DNA of 64,000 bases, taken from an uncultured Acidobacteriota bacterium. GTDB taxonomy: Bacteria > Acidobacteriota > Terriglobia > Terriglobales > Acidobacteriaceae. The position numbers and the translations under genes were made by a program. Under the pieces are notes generated by a model, which was not told the origin of the DNA, ran no database searches, and worked only from the letters and a program-made list of their open reading frames with translations. Below are positions 21,657 through 29,774 of this stretch, in pieces; the first letter of the stretch is position 1, and each line of letters starts with the position of its first letter. The stretch is taken from positions 1 to 64,000 of the forward strand of contig CAILAC010000003.1 in the NCBI GenBank assembly GCA_903832055.1. Direction: 5' to 3'.

Positions 21657-23318
21657 ATGGCTTACTTTCAGCACTTTTGGCCGTCTCAGAACGCCATTCT
21701 GCTTTGCGTTCCAGCGATTCTGTACTTTCTGGGAGGGGTAGCAGGGCCGCTTGCATCCGCGCAAAGACTCTTGGTTCCCAGGGCATGGAGTCTGGCTAGA
21801 ACAGCGAGCACCGCTTCATTTCTCTTTTCGATCGCATGCTGCGCTGATGCGCTTGTGCAGGCACAGTCTCTGGTTCGTCAACCGCAGATCGATTCGCTGG
21901 CCGCATTCGGCATGGTCCGTCTTAGCTTTCGCTTCGACATTGTGGATTCGCTCATGCTGTTGCTTGTGACTTTTCTCGGCTGGGTCATCGTCAGCTATTC
22001 GCGCGCATACATGGCAGGAGACACTCAACAACCTCAATATATTGGCTACCTTATGCGCACCCTCGCCGCAGTGAGCCTGCTGGTGGTGACGAACAGCCTA
22101 ATTCTGTTTCTCCTTGCGTGGGTTCTCACCAGCCTTTCGCTCCACGGCTTGCTGACGCTGTATCCCAACCGGCAGGCGGGAGTGATTGCGGCTCACAAGA
22201 AGTTTCTTGCAAGCCGGCTGGGGGATATCACTCTTCTATGCGGAGTCGGGCTGATCGGCTCACAGACAGGCAGCTTCGAGATGGACGAAGTAGTGCATCG
22301 AATCGCGGGGTATCATCCGGTCCCGGCATCCATTCATGTTGCAGCTTTACTGCTTGCCATAAGCGCCATGATTAAGTGCGCTCAACTTCCACTGCATGGT
22401 TGGCTAATTCAGGTGATGGAAGCTCCTACGCCAGTCTCCGCGCTGCTTCACGCGGGAGTCGTCAACCTCGGTGGGTTCATGCTCATTCGTCTTGCGCCAG
22501 TGATCAACACAACGCCAGTGGCACAGGACTTGCTGGTGATTGTTGGTTGCTTGACTGCGACTATCAGCTCGCTGGTGATGACCACGCGCATCAGCATCAA
22601 GGTCAATTTAGCCTGGTCTACCTGTGCCCAGATGGGATTCATGCTCATGGAATGTGGCCTTGGGTTCTACAGTCTTGCCTTTTTGCATCTGCTTGCGCAC
22701 TCGCTATACAAGGCGCATGCATTTCTCTGGTCAGGGGGAACAGTCAACCAGGCGAAGTTGAAGCGCATGATACCGCCGCGTCCGCAGTTCAGCTTTACCT
22801 CTCTGATCGGAAGCGGGTTTTGCGGACTCATCGTGGCAACTCTTGGAGCAATTCTTTGGCAGCCTGCTGCCGGCTTGGATGGTGCCTTGATTTTTTGCAT
22901 CACAATCGCCGGATTTGCGACGTCTGGAATTCTGGCGAACGCGCTCTCTGCACGCAACGTTGCAGCATCGATCATCCTTTCGATATCAGCTCTCGGAGTC
23001 ACCACACTCTATTTCGGCTACGACACTCTGTTCCACAAAATCCTGCCCGAAGCAACGGCCGACCTCGGGCAGCATCCGATGATTCTGATCTTTGCAACGG
23101 CGTGCTTCGTTCTGCTCTTCGGCATCCAGACAATCGTTCGTGTAAAACCTCTAGGACAGTTTGCCACCACGCTATATCCGTGGTTCTATGCCGGGCTCTA
23201 TCTGGATGAGGTCTTCACGCGGGCAACGTTTCGAATATGGCCAGCAAATCAGTCAACGAAAATGCCTCTCGGTCGGGATGCTTCGCAACCATTCAAAGTT
23301 GAAGGAGTGAGTCTATGA
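21657..23318 (+). CDS. dabB: DabB, proton-conducting membrane subunit of the DAB inorganic-carbon transporter
   Basis: A 553-residue polytopic protein of the NuoL/MrpA antiporter-like family. Typical segments are YLMRTLAAVSLLVVTNSLILF, the Lys/His-containing helix AMIKCAQLPLHGWL, APTPVSALLHAGVVNLGG, and HLLAHSLYKAHAFLWSG. It is shorter than NuoL and has no other complex I genes around it. The next gene overlaps by ATGA and encodes the DUF2309 partner DabA. Together they use the proton gradient to drive one-way CO2 hydration to bicarbonate in the cytoplasm. AAAGGA precedes the start. Confidence 0.9.
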   Translation: MAYFQHFWPSQNAILLCVPAILYFLGGVAGPLASAQRLLVPRAWSLARTASTASFLFSIACCADALVQAQSLVRQPQIDSLAAFGMVRLSFRFDIVDSLMLLLVTFLGWVIVSYSRAYMAGDTQQPQYIGYLMRTLAAVSLLVVTNSLILFLLAWVLTSLSLHGLLTLYPNRQAGVIAAHKKFLASRLGDITLLCGVGLIGSQTGSFEMDEVVHRIAGYHPVPASIHVAALLLAISAMIKCAQLPLHGWLIQVMEAPTPVSALLHAGVVNLGGFMLIRLAPVINTTPVAQDLLVIVGCLTATISSLVMTTRISIKVNLAWSTCAQMGFMLMECGLGFYSLAFLHLLAHSLYKAHAFLWSGGTVNQAKLKRMIPPRPQFSFTSLIGSGFCGLIVATLGAILWQPAAGLDGALIFCITIAGFATSGILANALSARNVAASIILSISALGVTTLYFGYDTLFHKILPEATADLGQHPMILIFATACFVLLFGIQTIVRVKPLGQFATTLYPWFYAGLYLDEVFTRATFRIWPANQSTKMPLGRDASQPFKVEGVSL

Positions 23319-25855
23319 GAATGCGAGATATATCCGGGGCGTCAGCACCCATGACCAGGTCGATCAAGGAAGCTGTGGAGACAGCTTGCAAGCGTATTGC
23401 TCCGACATGGCCGCTTGACCAGTTCATCGCCGTGAATCCTTACTGGGGGTTTGTTGACAACCCGGTCAACACCGTCGCCCATCAAATCGAAAGCTACTCC
23501 GGCTCACGCATGCTCATGCCGCGCAGTTTTTATCGAGATCAATGGAAAGCGGGATCATTTTGCACGGAGCACCTGCAGGAGGCATTGCATCGGTCGGGGA
23601 CAGGTATCTCGATGACGAACCTTCTAGGCCAACTTGAAAGCGAGCCACCGTCCGCTCCACGGGTTCCTCTCGTCACATCGATAGCTGACTCTCAACGTGA
23701 TCTGGTGCACGGCATGTCGATCAGTGACTTCGTCACGCACAATGTGAGCCAGCACTGCGCTTCTTACTTTGACCACTGCCAGTCCTCCTGGGAGACTCAA
23801 CACAAGCGGGACCTTTATCAGAGTTGGCTGGTCCACGCCCGTGCAGACATGAGTCCGTGGCTTCTGATGGGCATCCACAAAGTGCGTCACCATGCGCGTT
23901 TGCTGCCGGATGACCCTCTCGCGCTGATCAATGAAGCGCTGCAAGCACTACCCGTCCCGCGGCAGGAATGGGTGAACTACCTGACGGCGCTCTTGATGAG
24001 CATCAACGGCTGGGCATCGTGGTGCGCCTATGAGCGTTGGCAGGCGCAACTTGCTCAGATGGACGATGACCATATCGTCCATCTATTAGCCATCCGGCTG
24101 GCCTGGGAGCAATTTGCGTTTGTTCAACTGCTCGAATCTCAAGAGAGTGCCGCGTGGAAGAGAGCGTGGGAAGAACTGCTTGAGTGGCGGAAGGGGGTTG
24201 AACAGCAATTATCCGTTGACTGGATCTTTCAGGAGGCTCTGGAGATCGCTTACCAGAATGAATTGTGCCAGGCACTGAAGCGCGATCCGCTCCTTTCAGC
24301 CTCAAGAGTTCAAGGCACGCCTGCAATTCAGGCCGTCTTTTGCATCGACGTCCGCTCTGAGGTATTCCGACGCTCCTTTGAGGGCTGTTCGGATGTGATT
24401 CAGACGCTCGGCTTTGCCGGATTCTTTGGCCTGCCTATCTCTTACGCGCCACTCGGAATCGACGCTGAGCGGCCTCAATTGCCGGGTCTCCTTGCCCCCA
24501 AACTCTGCGTATCAGAAAGCACTGGATCAGAAATCACCGATCAGCAGGCGATACACAAAAAGCAGCGGAGCCTGTTCTTCAAGTCGATTTGGAAAGACTT
24601 TCGGTCGTCGGCAACCTCCACATTTACGTTTGTCGAATCGTGTGGGCTCTTCTATGCAAATTCACTGCTGAAAAGCACACTTCATAGCCCGAACCGAAAG
24701 GACGAAAGACGCGATTCAAACCCCGGCCAAGCTCCATCCCTGCGCCCTTGCCTCACTCAAGGCAAGGGCCATGACCTGCCGTCGAACGAAAGCCTGTGTG
24801 ATTTAGTTGCCGGAATCCTTACCAACATGAGCCTCACTTCATACTTTGCGCGTCTGGTTCTGATTGCGGGTCACGGTAGCCAAACTGTCAATAATCCTCA
24901 TGCTGCGGGACTCGATTGTGGAGCCTGCGGTGGTCAGACTGGTGAAGTCAACGCGCGGATTCTTGCTGGACTTCTTAACGACACGACGATTCGAACTGGA
25001 CTCTCAGTGCGAGGAATCAGGCTTCCAGACACAACGTATGTACTCGCCGCACTGCACAACACGACAACAGATGAAGTCACGATCTTTGACACAGATTTAG
25101 TGCCACAGAGCCACGCTTCCGACCTCTTGCGTTTGCAAGACTGGCTGCGACAGGCAGGCCACCGGGCGCGCGCGGAAAGGGCGGAATTTCTTGGAATCAG
25201 TGGATACGAAGCCGCTTCGGCTGAAACTCTGCTGAATCAATTCCTGATTCGCAGCCGCGATTGGTCTCAGGTGAGGCCCGAGTGGGGGCTTGCCAACAAT
25301 GCTGCTTTCGTGATCGCCCCACGCACACGCAGCCACGACATCAACCTGCGAGGTCGCGTGTTCCTGCATGAGTACCAGAGCGCTCTCGACCCGGAAGGCG
25401 GCGTACTTGAGGCCATCATGACCGCTCCTATGCTTGTCACAAACTGGATCAATATGCAGTATTACGCTTCCACGGTCGACAATCGCCTCTATGGAAGCGG
25501 TAATAAAGTGCTGCATAACGTAGTGGGTGGACGACTCGGCGTCTTTGAAGGCAATGGCGGCGATCTTCGCATTGGACTGCCACTCCAGTCTCTGCATGAC
25601 GGACACACATTGCGCCATACGCCTCTGCGGTTGAGTGTCTTCATCGAGGCGCCGCAGAGTGCCATTGCCGCAATCATTCGGAAGCATGAGGTTGTGAGAA
25701 ACCTCATCCATAATTCCTGGATACATCTATTCCAGATAGTGCCTGGATCGGGGACCCTGTCTCGGTATCGGAATGGAATGTGGGAACCGGTTCAAGTCGA
25801 TGACCGCAATGCGAGTGAGGAAATCCCTGTTCTCACCGGAGGAACACCTGCGTAA
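23315..25855 (+). CDS. dabA: DabA (DUF2309), zinc-dependent inorganic-carbon transporter subunit
   Basis: An 846-residue DUF2309 protein. The beta-carbonic-anhydrase-like zinc site is intact: C343 and D345 in FCIDVRSE, H520 in GHGSQT and C535 in LDCGACGGQTGE, matching the four essential positions of characterised DabA. Other family blocks are PLDQFIAVNPYWGF near the start and NWINMQYYASTVDN near residue 710. It acts at the inner face of the membrane with DabB. The start overlaps dabB by ATGA. Downstream, only 21 bp after the stop codon, begins sequence homologous to the middle of SelB, which marks a recombination junction. Confidence 0.92.
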   Translation: MRMRDISGASAPMTRSIKEAVETACKRIAPTWPLDQFIAVNPYWGFVDNPVNTVAHQIESYSGSRMLMPRSFYRDQWKAGSFCTEHLQEALHRSGTGISMTNLLGQLESEPPSAPRVPLVTSIADSQRDLVHGMSISDFVTHNVSQHCASYFDHCQSSWETQHKRDLYQSWLVHARADMSPWLLMGIHKVRHHARLLPDDPLALINEALQALPVPRQEWVNYLTALLMSINGWASWCAYERWQAQLAQMDDDHIVHLLAIRLAWEQFAFVQLLESQESAAWKRAWEELLEWRKGVEQQLSVDWIFQEALEIAYQNELCQALKRDPLLSASRVQGTPAIQAVFCIDVRSEVFRRSFEGCSDVIQTLGFAGFFGLPISYAPLGIDAERPQLPGLLAPKLCVSESTGSEITDQQAIHKKQRSLFFKSIWKDFRSSATSTFTFVESCGLFYANSLLKSTLHSPNRKDERRDSNPGQAPSLRPCLTQGKGHDLPSNESLCDLVAGILTNMSLTSYFARLVLIAGHGSQTVNNPHAAGLDCGACGGQTGEVNARILAGLLNDTTIRTGLSVRGIRLPDTTYVLAALHNTTTDEVTIFDTDLVPQSHASDLLRLQDWLRQAGHRARAERAEFLGISGYEAASAETLLNQFLIRSRDWSQVRPEWGLANNAAFVIAPRTRSHDINLRGRVFLHEYQSALDPEGGVLEAIMTAPMLVTNWINMQYYASTVDNRLYGSGNKVLHNVVGGRLGVFEGNGGDLRIGLPLQSLHDGHTLRHTPLRLSVFIEAPQSAIAAIIRKHEVVRNLIHNSWIHLFQIVPGSGTLSRYRNGMWEPVQVDDRNASEEIPVLTGGTPA

Positions 25856-25894
25856 ACCCTGAAGGTCGAGGAGTGAGCCGGTTGCGTCGACGCT

Positions 25895-27529
25895 GTGCTG
25901 CTCGTTATATCAGCCCAGGAAGGCGTGAAGCCACAGACGGAAGAGCATCTTGCCATTTGCAACCTACTCGGCGTGCGACGCGGAGTCGTCGCCGTCACAA
26001 AGGTCGATACAGTTTCTCAAGAGCAACTGGAAGCAACTCTTGCCCAAATCCAATCCTTGCTAGGCGAATCGTTTCTGGGTCGAAGCAACGCCGCGACTGT
26101 GACTGTGAGTGCAAGAACAGGAGCTGGGCTTGATGATCTGCGCAGCGAACTTAAATCCCTTGCCATGGGTACCAGATGCAATCAGGACCATGGGTTGCGC
26201 CTACCCATCGATCGCGCATTTATCATGAAGGGTTTCGGAACAGTCGTCACAGGCACGCTGCTCTCCGGATCAATTGAAACTGGACAGTCTCTTGCGCTCG
26301 AACCGGGTGGCCTGATCGCGCGTGTGCGCGGCGTCCAGGTCCACAATCGCCCCGAAACTCAGGCAAACGGGCGCTGTCGAGTGGCGCTGAACCTCGCAGG
26401 AATCGATGTTTCCGAGATTTCACGGGGCCAGACGCTTGTTGACGGTCAGTCATTTGGCGCGGTGACTAACATCGATGTGGAAGTAACTTTACTCCCCAGT
26501 TGTTCTGGATTGAAACATCGTGCCCGAGTGCACTTTCATGCCTTCACCTCAGACGCGATGGCAGCCGTCTCGCTTTACGGATACAAGGGCATGGAAGCGG
26601 GAGAGTCTCGACTGTTGCGACTCAAGCTTGCCAAGCCCATGGTGCTGGTACCCGGTGATCGCTTCGTCCTGAGACAAGCTTCGCCGGCTGTCACCATCGG
26701 TGGCGGCAGGATACTCGGTGCCCATCCAATAGCGAATCTGCGCAAATCGAATTGCCTGCAATGGCTGGATCAGTTACGAAACTCGTCCCTGGAAAATGAG
26801 TTGCTTCTTCGTGTTTCGCGGCGTGGTATTTCAGGCATGGAAATGCGCCAATTGATGACCGAAACCGGGCTCAGCCGGGATGTACTGCTGAGAGCCACCA
26901 AAGAAGCACTTAAAAATGGAAGCTTGATCCAAATTCCCTGCGGAACTTTCATCGCACGGGAACATGTGGACTCAAGCACGGCGCGCATTACAGCACTTCT
27001 GAATACTGACGTTCATGGCACCGGCCTGAAGAGGTCTGCGCTGAAGAGCCGACTGAATCTGCACGCGGAGGTGCTTGATTTCGTCATTGAAATGCTCGCT
27101 GGCCAACAGAAGTTGGTAATCAAAGGCGAAGTTATCCATGACCTTCGAATTGAAAGCCCAATATCGAGCGCCGAACAAAACGCGCTCGCTGCGATTGAGA
27201 ATGCATTTCGATCCGCGGGCCTGGCAACGCCATCCGTCGCGGAGGTTGCGGCAAAGCTCCAACTTGCTGGCCCTGAAATGCGCCGGCTTATGACGCTTCT
27301 GCTGCGTGAAAAAACTCTTCTCAAAATGGGGCATGAAGAGGTGTATTTGCATCGGGATGCGGTCGAGGCACTCCGCCGGCAGCTATCCCAGCTTAGTGGC
27401 CAAAGCATCGACGTTGCCGGATTCAAGCAAATGACAGGTGTTTCAAGAAAGTATGCAATCCCCCTTCTGGAGTTTCTGGATCGTGAAAGGGTTACCCGAA
27501 AGGTGGAGGACAGGCGAATTGTTCTTTGA
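25895..27529 (+). CDS. selB: SelB, selenocysteine-specific elongation factor, N-terminally truncated
   Basis: A 544-residue open frame homologous to SelB from the middle of the GTPase domain onward. Present: G4 TKVD (35-38), G5 SAR, EF-Tu-like domains 2 and 3 (RAFIMKGFGTVVTGTLLSGS) and the C-terminal winged helices ending VSRKYAIPLLEFLDRE, which bind the SECIS RNA. Missing: the P-loop GHVDHGKT, switch 1 and the DxPGHE motif, about 85 residues. Homology starts at about 25880 (GCVDAVLLVI), directly behind an in-frame TGA and 21 bp after dabA. Without a P-loop it cannot bind GTP normally. It is probably a recombination remnant, unless an intact start lies elsewhere. The two genes that follow contain in-frame TGA codons of selenoprotein type. 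Confidence 0.85.
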   Translation: MLLVISAQEGVKPQTEEHLAICNLLGVRRGVVAVTKVDTVSQEQLEATLAQIQSLLGESFLGRSNAATVTVSARTGAGLDDLRSELKSLAMGTRCNQDHGLRLPIDRAFIMKGFGTVVTGTLLSGSIETGQSLALEPGGLIARVRGVQVHNRPETQANGRCRVALNLAGIDVSEISRGQTLVDGQSFGAVTNIDVEVTLLPSCSGLKHRARVHFHAFTSDAMAAVSLYGYKGMEAGESRLLRLKLAKPMVLVPGDRFVLRQASPAVTIGGGRILGAHPIANLRKSNCLQWLDQLRNSSLENELLLRVSRRGISGMEMRQLMTETGLSRDVLLRATKEALKNGSLIQIPCGTFIAREHVDSSTARITALLNTDVHGTGLKRSALKSRLNLHAEVLDFVIEMLAGQQKLVIKGEVIHDLRIESPISSAEQNALAAIENAFRSAGLATPSVAEVAAKLQLAGPEMRRLMTLLLREKTLLKMGHEEVYLHRDAVEALRRQLSQLSGQSIDVAGFKQMTGVSRKYAIPLLEFLDRERVTRKVEDRRIVL

Positions 27530-27633
27530 TCTGCGCTTGCGGCGCTTCCAAAAAATCCTGGTGACTCGCACTTGAGAACAGTGCTAATCTGTTTTTCTGA
27601 AATCAGCTTTCAGATTCGAACACTGGCCTAAGC

Positions 27634-28218
27634 ATGATGAGTGAACACAAGAACAAAATCGAAGTAATTGAAGACGCGCATGCCACCGGTGATGTGGCAC
27701 AAGTGTATGAGGCGTGGCGCGCGCAATCGGGTCGCCAGATGATGCCCGGAATTCTGAAGTGCTTCAGTCACCGACCCGATTTCCTGCAGGAAGTGATCAG
27801 CTTCAGTAATACGGTGCATTTTTCTGAAGGGCACCTGACCCGCCGAACCAAGGAAGCCATTGCAAGCTGGGTCTCCTGGCTTAACCGCTGCCCCTATTGA
27901 CTGGACTCACATGCCTACTTCCTGCGTGTTCAGGGAGCCGAAGAAGATACAGTCAACGCAATCGCAGAGGGTAACCTCGACGATGCGAAGCTCAGTCGGT
28001 CAGAACGGGCACTCCTTGAGTATGTAACCAAGGTTACCGAGGCTGCTTATCGCACGTCAGCGGAAGATGTGCAGGTGCTCAGGGAGCATGGCTGGACAGA
28101 GCCGCAGATTGCGGAAGCGGTGTACATCACAGCGATGTTCGCCTTCTTTAATCGAGTCGCTGACGCATTCGGAATTGCTTCCCAGGGCTATCTTGAAATG
28201 GGCGGACCAGCCAAGTAG
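27634..28218 (+). CDS. AhpD-like (carboxymuconolactone decarboxylase family) selenoprotein with CPYU
   Basis: Read through an in-frame TGA at 27898-27900 this is one 194-residue alkylhydroperoxidase-like protein. Before the TGA: GHLTRRTKEAIASWVSWLNRCPY. After it: LDSHAYFLRVQGAEEDTVNA, through to EAVYITAMFAFFNRVADAFGI, the usual helical end. In AhpD the active site is CxxCxxxH; here it reads C86-P-Y-U89-L-D-S-H93, so the TGA falls exactly on the resolving/peroxidatic cysteine. Coding character is the same on both sides. A hairpin lies 18 to 37 bases after the TGA. I infer a selenocysteine-containing peroxidase or peroxiredoxin-like enzyme. Standard gene finding would split it into two fragments. 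Confidence 0.85.
27918..27937 (+). promoter_or_regulatory. Candidate bacterial SECIS hairpin in the AhpD-like selenoprotein gene
   Basis: CTTCCTG (27918-27924), loop CGTGTT, CAGGGAG (27931-27937): seven pairs with one G-U. The loop starts 24 bases after the TGA and has G as its second base. Stem length, distance and an early loop G agree with the general bacterial SECIS model, though there is no GGU as in E. coli fdhF. Confidence 0.55.
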
Positions 28219-28229
28219 AGTTGCAAACG

Positions 28230-28952
28230 ATGAAGTTGAAGAAGACGACAAAGCGATGGTTCGTTGTCACGAGTGTGCCACTGTTCTGTCTGTGGCTCGG
28301 TTTCGTAGGTTATATCGACTGGGCCATGCATCAGCCACCGGAAGTGTTCGGGCGGGTGATGTCGAACATGCCTATGCCTGCCTACTTCCTCTTCCCTTTC
28401 GAGACCATGTGGTCGGAGGCACGCAAGGGCACTCTAAATGTCGGAGACACTGCGCCAAGCTTTACCGTAACGAATCTTGAAGGCCAGTTACCGGTGCAAT
28501 TGGCGGGTCTTTGGGCAGAGAAGCCAGTCGTCCTGGTATTTGGAAGCTATACTTGACCACCATTTCGGCGGGAGGTTCCCGCCTTGAACAAACTGGCTGA
28601 CGAGTACAAGGGTAAGGTTGATTTCTATGCCATCTATATCCTGGAAGCTCATCCAACCGATGTGTGGCAGATGCAAAGCAATGTTCGAGATAATGTCCTG
28701 TTCCGCAGTCCCCGCGACGAGGCGGAACGAGCCATGGTTGCTGGATCTTGCGTTCGAAAGCTACACATCAAGTTTCCTGCTCTGATTGATGGCTTCGACA
28801 ACCAGGTTGAATCAAAATACACAGGCTGGCCTGACCGAATGTATCTGATTCAACCCGGCGGACGTATCGCCTTCAAGAGCAAGCCTGGACCTTTCGGTTT
28901 TCACCCCGATGAACTGGCTTCGGCATTGCGGAATACTGTTGGACACAATTGA
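28230..28952 (+). CDS. Iodothyronine deiodinase-like selenoprotein (thioredoxin fold, TUPPF)
   Basis: One 240-residue protein if the in-frame TGA at 28554-28556 is read as selenocysteine (residue 109). An N-terminal membrane anchor (about 10-30, FVVTSVPLFCLWLGFVGYI) is followed by a thioredoxin fold. The active site reads VVLVFGSYTU-PPFRREVPALNKL, matching the FGSCTUPPF motif of animal deiodinases, and DFYAIYILEAHPTDVW matches their YIEEAHPSDGW segment. The rest (LHIKFPALIDGFDN, YLIQPGGRIAFK) completes the fold. The gene starts 11 bp after the AhpD-like gene. Substrate unknown: bacterial members need not act on thyroid hormones, so a peroxidase or dehalogenase role is open. Confidence 0.87.
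28567..28583 (+). promoter_or_regulatory. Bacterial SECIS hairpin in the deiodinase-like gene
   Basis: GGCGGGA (28567-28573), loop GGT, TCCCGCC (28577-28583): a perfect 7-bp stem whose apical loop is GGU. The GGU begins 17 bases after the TGA codon, very close to the spacing in E. coli fdhF. This is the element SelB reads to insert selenocysteine. Confidence 0.85.
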
Positions 28953-29061
28953 TCGACCGCTCTCAAACCCCTTGTTTCTATCGGTCTGCAATCCTAAGGA
29001 CCGCGACGCAGTGAATGATGGATCGCCCTTCGCTGGGGTGATATCGATTGTAAGTTCCATT

Positions 29062-29561
29062 AGACCAACGTCACGCATTCCGTCTGGCGCAACCTGGAAT
29101 GCGACACAACAACAGAATCGTCACGAAGACCTTTACCACTGCACCCGATTGTCGTTGCGGAATTAAAGCAATGGAAACTGGTCACCCTTTGCGAATCTGC
29201 CCAAGACTATTTCTTTCCTTCTATCGTGAAAAATAGAGGACAGACTCTTCAGAGAGACGTGATTCTGAAGCGCCGTATCCGACCAGCTTTGAGGCGAATT
29301 GGAGTTGATAAACCAATCGGGTGGAATTCATTCAGGCGAGGTCTTGGGAGCATGCTGGGAGCCATCGGTATTGAACTCAGAGTAGCTCAAGAATTACTTC
29401 GCCGAGCTCATCCCCGCATCACGATGGAGACTTATCAATCGGCTGTGATTGGAAGAAAATGGATGCCCAGAATCTGGTCTTCAGGGGTCTACTGGGAGCA
29501 GGCACCACTGAGCACCCGCGAAGACCCTATGAAGGAAGATGTCACTGTCATAAACCATTGA
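29062..29561 (+). pseudogene. C-terminal remnant of a tyrosine recombinase/integrase
   Basis: The frame from about 29062 reads THSVWRNLECDTTTESSRR, PLPLHPIVVAELKQW, then GWNSFRRGLGSMLGAIG and HPRITMETYQSAVI. These are the catalytic-domain arginine box (RRG) and tyrosine helix (ETY) of phage-type integrases. The N-terminal half is missing and a stop lies just upstream. It points toward, and nearly abuts, tRNA-Asp, a common attachment site, so it is likely the relic of an element once integrated there. The remaining sequence 28953-29061 shows nothing. Confidence 0.7.
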
Positions 29562-29575
29562 CTCTATCAGGTTTA

Positions 29576-29652
<77 letters not shown>

Positions 29653-29774
29653 GGCTTGGGCTTGGTAACCCAATCGGTTGCAACTTCGTAAGTTTAGCAG
29701 AAGAGACCGTTCCGATGCACCCCCTGCGCGGGAAAAATGGCGCGTCGGCACGGTCTCCGTTGAAATAAAACAGC

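Follow-up and report, generated by a model that had tools for sequence, protein, structure and literature searches.

A truncated selB and two TGA-containing redox genes in an Acidobacteriaceae genome, the probable remnant of a selenocysteine cassette

Genes and features of the locus

The locus lies in a 64,000-nucleotide stretch of Acidobacteriaceae DNA, the whole of which is called the window here. Two adjacent genes on its forward strand each contain a single in-frame TGA at a conserved active site. The AhpD-like gene (27634-28218), recognized by translation, profile match and alignment, encodes 194 residues on readthrough, with the TGA at codon 89 (27898-27900) in the motif CPYU-LDSH. The deiodinase-like gene (28230-28952), recognized by the same means and by its solved relatives, encodes 240 residues on readthrough with its single internal TGA at codon 109 (28554-28556) in the motif FGSYTUPPF, and its own stop codon is TGA too. 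The original prediction of one in-frame TGA per gene, at the redox-active residue, was therefore confirmed. It had also given the deiodinase motif as FGSCTUPPF, which is the form found in animal deiodinases; the TUPPF part is present here but the residue before the threonine is a tyrosine.

Profile searches placed the deiodinase-like protein in the iodothyronine deiodinase family (PF00837, 104.3 bits vs. a cut-off of 27) and the AhpD-like protein, with the site CPYULDSH, in a peroxidase-related AhpD-like family (TIGR01926, 107.2 bits vs. a cut-off of 81.8), and in both cases the homology ran through the TGA without a change of frame, as had been predicted. Two other models stayed below their curated cut-offs: the NCBIfam model deiodinase_rel (NF038285) gave 191 bits vs. 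250 with the deiodinase-like protein, which matched only model positions 177-340 of 347, and the model for AhpD proper (TIGR00777) gave 20.2 bits vs. 191.95 with the AhpD-like protein. The best solved relatives were deiodinases 3 and 2 (4tr3, 9h48) for the deiodinase-like protein and an uncharacterised AhpD-core protein (2prr) for the AhpD-like protein. An enzymatic role of the former in taking iodine off iodothyronines is putative. Its N-terminus appears hydrophobic by eye, which suggests a membrane anchor.

When 14 deiodinase-like and 13 AhpD-like sequences were aligned, conservation around the two sites was strong and each gene had exactly one TGA; both TUPPF and EAHPTDVW were kept among the 14 deiodinase-like proteins. 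The codon at the deiodinase site was TGA in 35/35 close loci (L080-L114, which amount to 26 distinct places because nine named loci repeat loci already taken from the genome survey) and a Cys codon in 25/25 distant loci (L115-L139). At the AhpD site TGA was observed in each of the 27 loci that carry a close homologue, which represent 19 distinct places, and a Cys codon in all four distant matches (28%–31% identity; three in genome G160, one in G040). As TGA is uniform in close loci and Cys in distant ones, the codon can be explained neither by chance nor by an error of sequencing. The comparison with Cys homologues thus came out as anticipated, and stops or unrelated residues, which would have spoken against the prediction, were not seen among the homologues.

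Both TGA codons are followed by SECIS-like stretches on the same strand. In the deiodinase-like gene (28554-28583) a bacterial SECIS-like hairpin, GGCGGGA-GGT-TCCCGCC (28567-28583), starts 10 bases past the TGA codon and is predicted to form in 13 of 14 sequences. The stretch in the AhpD-like gene (27898-27940) has several possible folds, and its single-sequence prediction varies. We also determined, for codons of invariant residues, the share identical across 11 sequences within 13 codons downstream of the TGA and elsewhere. Identical codons made up 6/12 after the TGA vs. 2/85 elsewhere in the deiodinase-like gene (Fisher p 2e-5) and 7/13 vs. 1/97 in the AhpD-like gene (Fisher p 4e-7). A bacterial SECIS element is thus indicated by hairpin and codons for the deiodinase-like gene and by codons for the AhpD-like gene, with binding by SelB putative. 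Together, the catalytic-site TGA, the Cys found at that site in distant homologues and the SECIS-like pattern of conserved synonymous positions support the view that both are selenoprotein genes by descent.

Upstream of the pair on the forward strand lies a selB remnant (25877-27529) without the first ~75 to 98 residues, its first in-frame start codon being GTG at 25895. It gave 229.2 and 234.3 bits with TIGR00475, missing the cut-off of 242.25, and was matched from model position 72 of 581; GTP_EFTU was matched only from position 93 of 188. Alignment with four intact SelB relatives begins at GCVDAVLLVISAQEG, and the GTAGHIDHGKT P-loop, the DTDRLPEEKRRGITIDLGF stretch and DVPGH are missing, so that P-loop, G2 and G3 are all absent. 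Judged by the TIGR00475 cut-off and an intact GTPase domain, the remnant falls short of a whole SelB protein. It abuts dabB-dabA (21657-25855, forward strand), an inorganic carbon transporter locus whose DabA was identified at 864.9 bits with PF10070. An in-frame stop precedes the remnant, and the junction falls within 25856-25880. A second dabBA locus is present in this genome (G000:C6:44876-49937), with a DabA ~61% identical to that of the window; its LysR gene runs to the contig end, and contig C7 opens with a related LysR fragment.

Selenocysteine machinery in this genome and its relatives

The genome is a draft of 4,568,361 bases in 18 contigs, with a completeness of 98.83% and a contamination of 0.13%. 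As far as our searches reach, the genes for making and delivering selenocysteine (Sec) are absent from this assembly. No match to selA was found in the genome at E 0.001. The remnant was the only match of SelB length; other matches to the SelB model elsewhere in the genome reached at most 98.2 bits and were taken for other translational GTPases, those at two contig starts (C12:10-105, C16:10-105) being probable EF-Tu gene ends by their place. All eight matches to RF01852 in the genome were tRNA-Ser, tRNA-Cys, tRNA-Leu or tRNA-Tyr by ARAGORN. One tRNA-Sec candidate, at 50.2 bits above the Rfam cut-off of 47, was rejected since ARAGORN gave tRNA-Ser(tga); in the results given for 8 of 13 relatives' loci, the selC of six scored 66.5 to 72.4 bits. 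A relative's selC used as query found nothing in this genome, and as a positive control it found its target in 8/8 cassette genomes given. Likewise, a relative's SelD had no match in this genome and matched strongly in 10/11 other genomes given, the exception being G160 (59% complete), with a weak match only. A SelD candidate with a 60.5-bit match to the family model proved to be ThiL, thiamine-phosphate kinase (254.6 bits vs. 184.15).

The Sec-decoding trait, taken as presence of selA, selB, selC and selD, is therefore represented in this genome by a truncated selB only. A redox pathway served by the two selenoproteins had been suggested, with the absence of selA, selC and selD named as the finding that would speak against it. 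All three came out as absent in our searches and the SelB lacks its P-loop, so that a selenoprotein pathway at work in this organism is not supported. It follows that TGA-containing homologues are not to be annotated as working selenoproteins without a check for selA to selD.

The deiodinase-like gene with one TGA was found in 75 of 300 genomes surveyed in the family, a count that leaves out G293, whose copy has two TGA and one TAA. A strong selA match was present in 70 of the 75 (best E ~1e-170 to 4e-84). It was missing in this genome (98.83% complete), in G160 (59%, best E 5.6e-7) and in G073 (68%), G107 (69%) and G185 (83%), absence in the last three meaning that they were not among the matches listed. 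Within the 53 genomes at least 90% complete that carry the TGA-bearing gene, selA was missing in this genome only. The copy in G293 (G293:C5:1388-1949), a genome of 82% completeness that does not appear in the list of selA matches, is possibly an older decayed remnant.

Intact cassettes were found in relatives. In 9 of the 13 relatives' loci fetched (L082-L089, L091) the order is selD-selA-selB-ahpD-dio in one direction, where ahpD and dio denote the AhpD-like and deiodinase-like genes, and tRNA-Sec lies beside selD in the opposite direction in eight of those nine, the selC of G246 being on another contig. In L081 the contig end cuts the cassette inside selA, and in L080, L090 and L092 no sel genes were found within the stretch examined. 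The whole set occurs in Acidicapsa dinghuensis 4GSKX (L102), a soil bacterium of the same genus as this genome, in Acidobacteriaceae bacterium KBS 83 (L104) and in Acidobacteria bacterium AB60 (L103), and all but selC in the stretch examined of Occallatibacter savannae AB23 (L107). Other arrangements were also observed. In Edaphobacter lichenicola X5P2 (L096) selC separates the deiodinase-like gene from selD-selA-selB, which point away from it, and there is no AhpD-like match; L093 has selA-selB-dio without ahpD; and L099 and L101 have ahpD-dio with no SelB match in the upstream 1.5 and 9.4 kb.

The predicted operon pairing held in part. The two genes form the tail of the five-gene operon in relatives, but the stretches examined in six loci (L093, L096, L109-L112) contain the deiodinase-like gene and no AhpD-like match, which rules out a strict pairing and means that the link is not obligatory. 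In L080 (G160; L080:11174-12503) the TGA-bearing deiodinase-like gene is preceded, at a distance of 172 bases, by a distantly related AhpD-like gene (28% identity) whose site has Cys, so the pairing may persist there with a Cys partner.

Some further arrangements were recorded. In L090 (G217) and L092 (G032) the client genes have no adjoining sel genes, and each genome has its selA at another location; the client genes of G032 are ~5.9 kb apart and its SelD has an in-frame TGA. G072 has two selC copies (C1:401231-401325 and C1:5127276-5127370), 86% and 91% identical to that of A. dinghuensis.

Origin and age of the remnant

A decayed tyrosine-integrase fragment with two in-frame stops (28998-29459, forward strand) starts 45 bases past the deiodinase-like gene, beside a tRNA-Asp gene. 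It is 45% identical to residues 205-358 of a 419-aa integrase in G197, which adjoins the same tRNA-Asp. Comparison of shared flanks makes this tRNA-Asp(gtc) (29576-29652, reverse strand) the likely attachment site of inserted DNA. The right flank (tRNA-Asp, iclR onward) is common to genus members without the cassette there, and in A. dinghuensis the cassette and this flank are on different contigs. This genome, G183, G102 and G197 have the DNA to the right of the tRNA-Asp in common and differ in the DNA to its left, which makes the gene a likely insertion hot spot. In L085 a tRNA-Phe gene lies ~460 bases past the deiodinase-like gene. A search of a plasmid collection gave one weak match of 26.8% identity.

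A cassette tree was built from the joined SelB (3' part), AhpD-like and deiodinase-like proteins (11 rows, 958 columns). It separates this genome from A. dinghuensis, and a constraint that unites the pair carries a cost of 123 log units (AU p 0.00059); forcing four members of genus g9 into one clade costs 101 log units (AU p 1.6e-96). Both clade tests were run after a first tree had been seen. The trees reject grouping by genus and so support transfer; horizontal transfer of the cassette between genera is the simplest reading, and ancient duplicates followed by losses are a possible source of the same conflict.

Apart from the Sec TGAs the stranded frames contain no stop or length change. To gauge decay we took the sites that do not vary among the other ten sequences and counted those that differ in this genome, which gave 5/115 in SelB, 3/117 in AhpD and 3/110 in deiodinase, vs. 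ranges across the other ten rows of 0-8, 0-5 and 0-9, respectively. The stranded genes thus have no excess of private changes compared with ten intact relatives. Relaxed selection was considered and dropped: codon position 3 was saturated when its branch lengths were compared with those of positions 1+2, and there was no excess of private changes at otherwise invariant sites. Since the frames and SECIS-like stretches are still clean, the loss of the decoding genes was probably recent; the lack of decay would also be expected if the assembly were wrong at the junction. Loss of Sec decoding is usually inferred from absence, and here the step appears to have been caught midway, with clients and SECIS hairpins clean and the decoding genes gone.

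We consider it very probable that what remains at this locus is the 3' end of a once complete, horizontally acquired Sec cassette, stranded by a recent cut in which the machinery was lost. The order of events, the recency of the cut and the non-function of both genes are what we infer. The ancestral cassette would have comprised a divergent selC, then selD, selA and selB, which make and deliver Sec, and the AhpD-like and deiodinase-like clients. Moving between genera, it would here have landed beside the tRNA-Asp gene and the now decayed integrase, after which a rearrangement would have fused dabA to mid-selB, removing selC, selD, selA and the start of selB. With the decoding genes gone, translation should terminate at both TGAs, and the products would be fragments of 88 residues for AhpD and 108 residues for the deiodinase, each ending just before the catalytic residue.

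A second truncated selB is found in L098 (L098:1-2206), a 4,821-base metagenome contig of isolate JOPF197. This selB lacks everything before residue 274 of 650, and the ahpD and dio genes that come after it both have their TGA. The truncated gene begins 1,075 bases inside the contig, downstream of a tRNA-Leu and of what looks by eye like a CHAT-type reading frame. The breakpoints differ (~residue 99 here vs. 274 in L098), and L098 may be a second such cut of the cassette.

The stranded genes could also be explained by an assembly artefact, in which the whole cassette exists and a false dabA-selB join has dropped ~3 kb carrying selC, selD, selA and the start of selB. This would fit their lack of decay and the strong selA match in 70 of the 75 family genomes with this deiodinase gene, and the junction of this 18-contig draft is known from the assembly and not from reads. 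We nevertheless judge it unlikely. The junction lies 25.9 kb into a contig of 80,273 bases, there is no G+C step at it, and none of the repeat arms reported in a scan of 25600-29700 lies on it, all of which counts against a false join. The missing genes were found on no contig by family model or close relative despite the completeness of 98.83% and contamination of 0.13%, and L098, though a short metagenome contig, has a differently truncated selB before the same genes.

Two further explanations keep the genes in use. That the pieces serve some other end, as truncated products, by restart after the TGA (TTG at 28584) or by near-cognate readthrough, is very improbable in our view: no frame is lost, and the arrangement is not unique given the 5'-truncated selB before intact ahpD and dio in L098, but both fragments stop before the catalytic residue, a near-cognate tRNA would place another residue at the active site, and the differing selB breakpoints better fit chance breaks than a kept part. 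Working selenoproteins served by Sec machinery too diverged to find can hardly be credited, even with clean frames and conserved SECIS-like stretches, because the same queries readily find the machinery of relatives and the only SelB here lacks the P-loop, G2 and G3 motifs.

The stranded-cassette reading leaves the role of the pair to be judged from the relatives. AhpD proteins reduce peroxiredoxins. By analogy the AhpD-like CxxU protein may re-reduce the deiodinase-like enzyme, a proposal that the linked ahpD/dio pairs support, and in relatives the deiodinase-like thioredoxin-fold protein would use Sec to reduce peroxide or a similar substrate. The halogen or peroxide role put forward in the original prediction stays a suggestion. 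The linked partner provides a first context for the role of bacterial deiodinase-like selenoproteins. More tentatively, and with somewhat more doubt than belief, we propose that Acidobacteriaceae exchange a compact mobile Sec module (tRNA-Sec, SelD, SelA, SelB and two client redox enzymes) insertable beside tRNA genes, of which this locus would be a just-cut leftover with intact, dead clients. The intact cassettes in relatives offer a compact natural unit for testing gain of the 21st amino acid by one transfer.

Comparison with known systems

The papers compared here are cited from the portions of each that were available. No published description of this cassette or its remnant was found in the literature searched, a body from which subscription papers are mostly missing. 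According to these portions, it is already known that both families include selenoproteins, that Sec decoding can be lost when selB breaks and that the trait can be gained horizontally (PMC1088965, PMC1273633). Deiodinase-like (Pfam00837) and AhpD-like CxxU proteins were described in 2005 as bacterial selenoproteins with bacterial SECIS elements in the Sargasso Sea (PMC1088965). The two protein kinds are the same as here; they are listed there, in the part available, as separate families, whereas here they form the tail of a cassette in relatives and the decoding genes are missing in this genome.

Co-operonic selenoproteins are reported for a Prx-like with an AhpD-like protein (PMC13188914, available part), which likewise joins an AhpD-like selenoprotein to another redox selenoprotein in one operon. 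The partner at our locus is instead deiodinase-like, and selD-selA-selB head the operon in relatives. Three known selenoprotein genes are given for Occallatibacter riparius DSM 25168 in the accessible text of PMC12013277; G217, which by our inference is that strain, has both genes (L090), but its selA sits elsewhere.

Horizontal gain of the Sec trait is on record, e.g. for Photobacterium profundum (PMC1273633, in part), where, as in the cassette, the Sec-decoding genes were gained together. The same source has selD rarely adjoining selA-selB, whereas selC, selD, selA, selB and the two clients stand together in the cassette of the relatives. The excerpt also describes some Yersinia pestis strains in which Sec decoding was recently lost and selB is a pseudogene (PMC1273633), so that in both cases a broken selB marks recent loss of the trait. 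Those strains, however, keep selA, selC and selD with a frameshifted selB, whereas here those three genes and the 5' part of selB are gone and the two clients remain.
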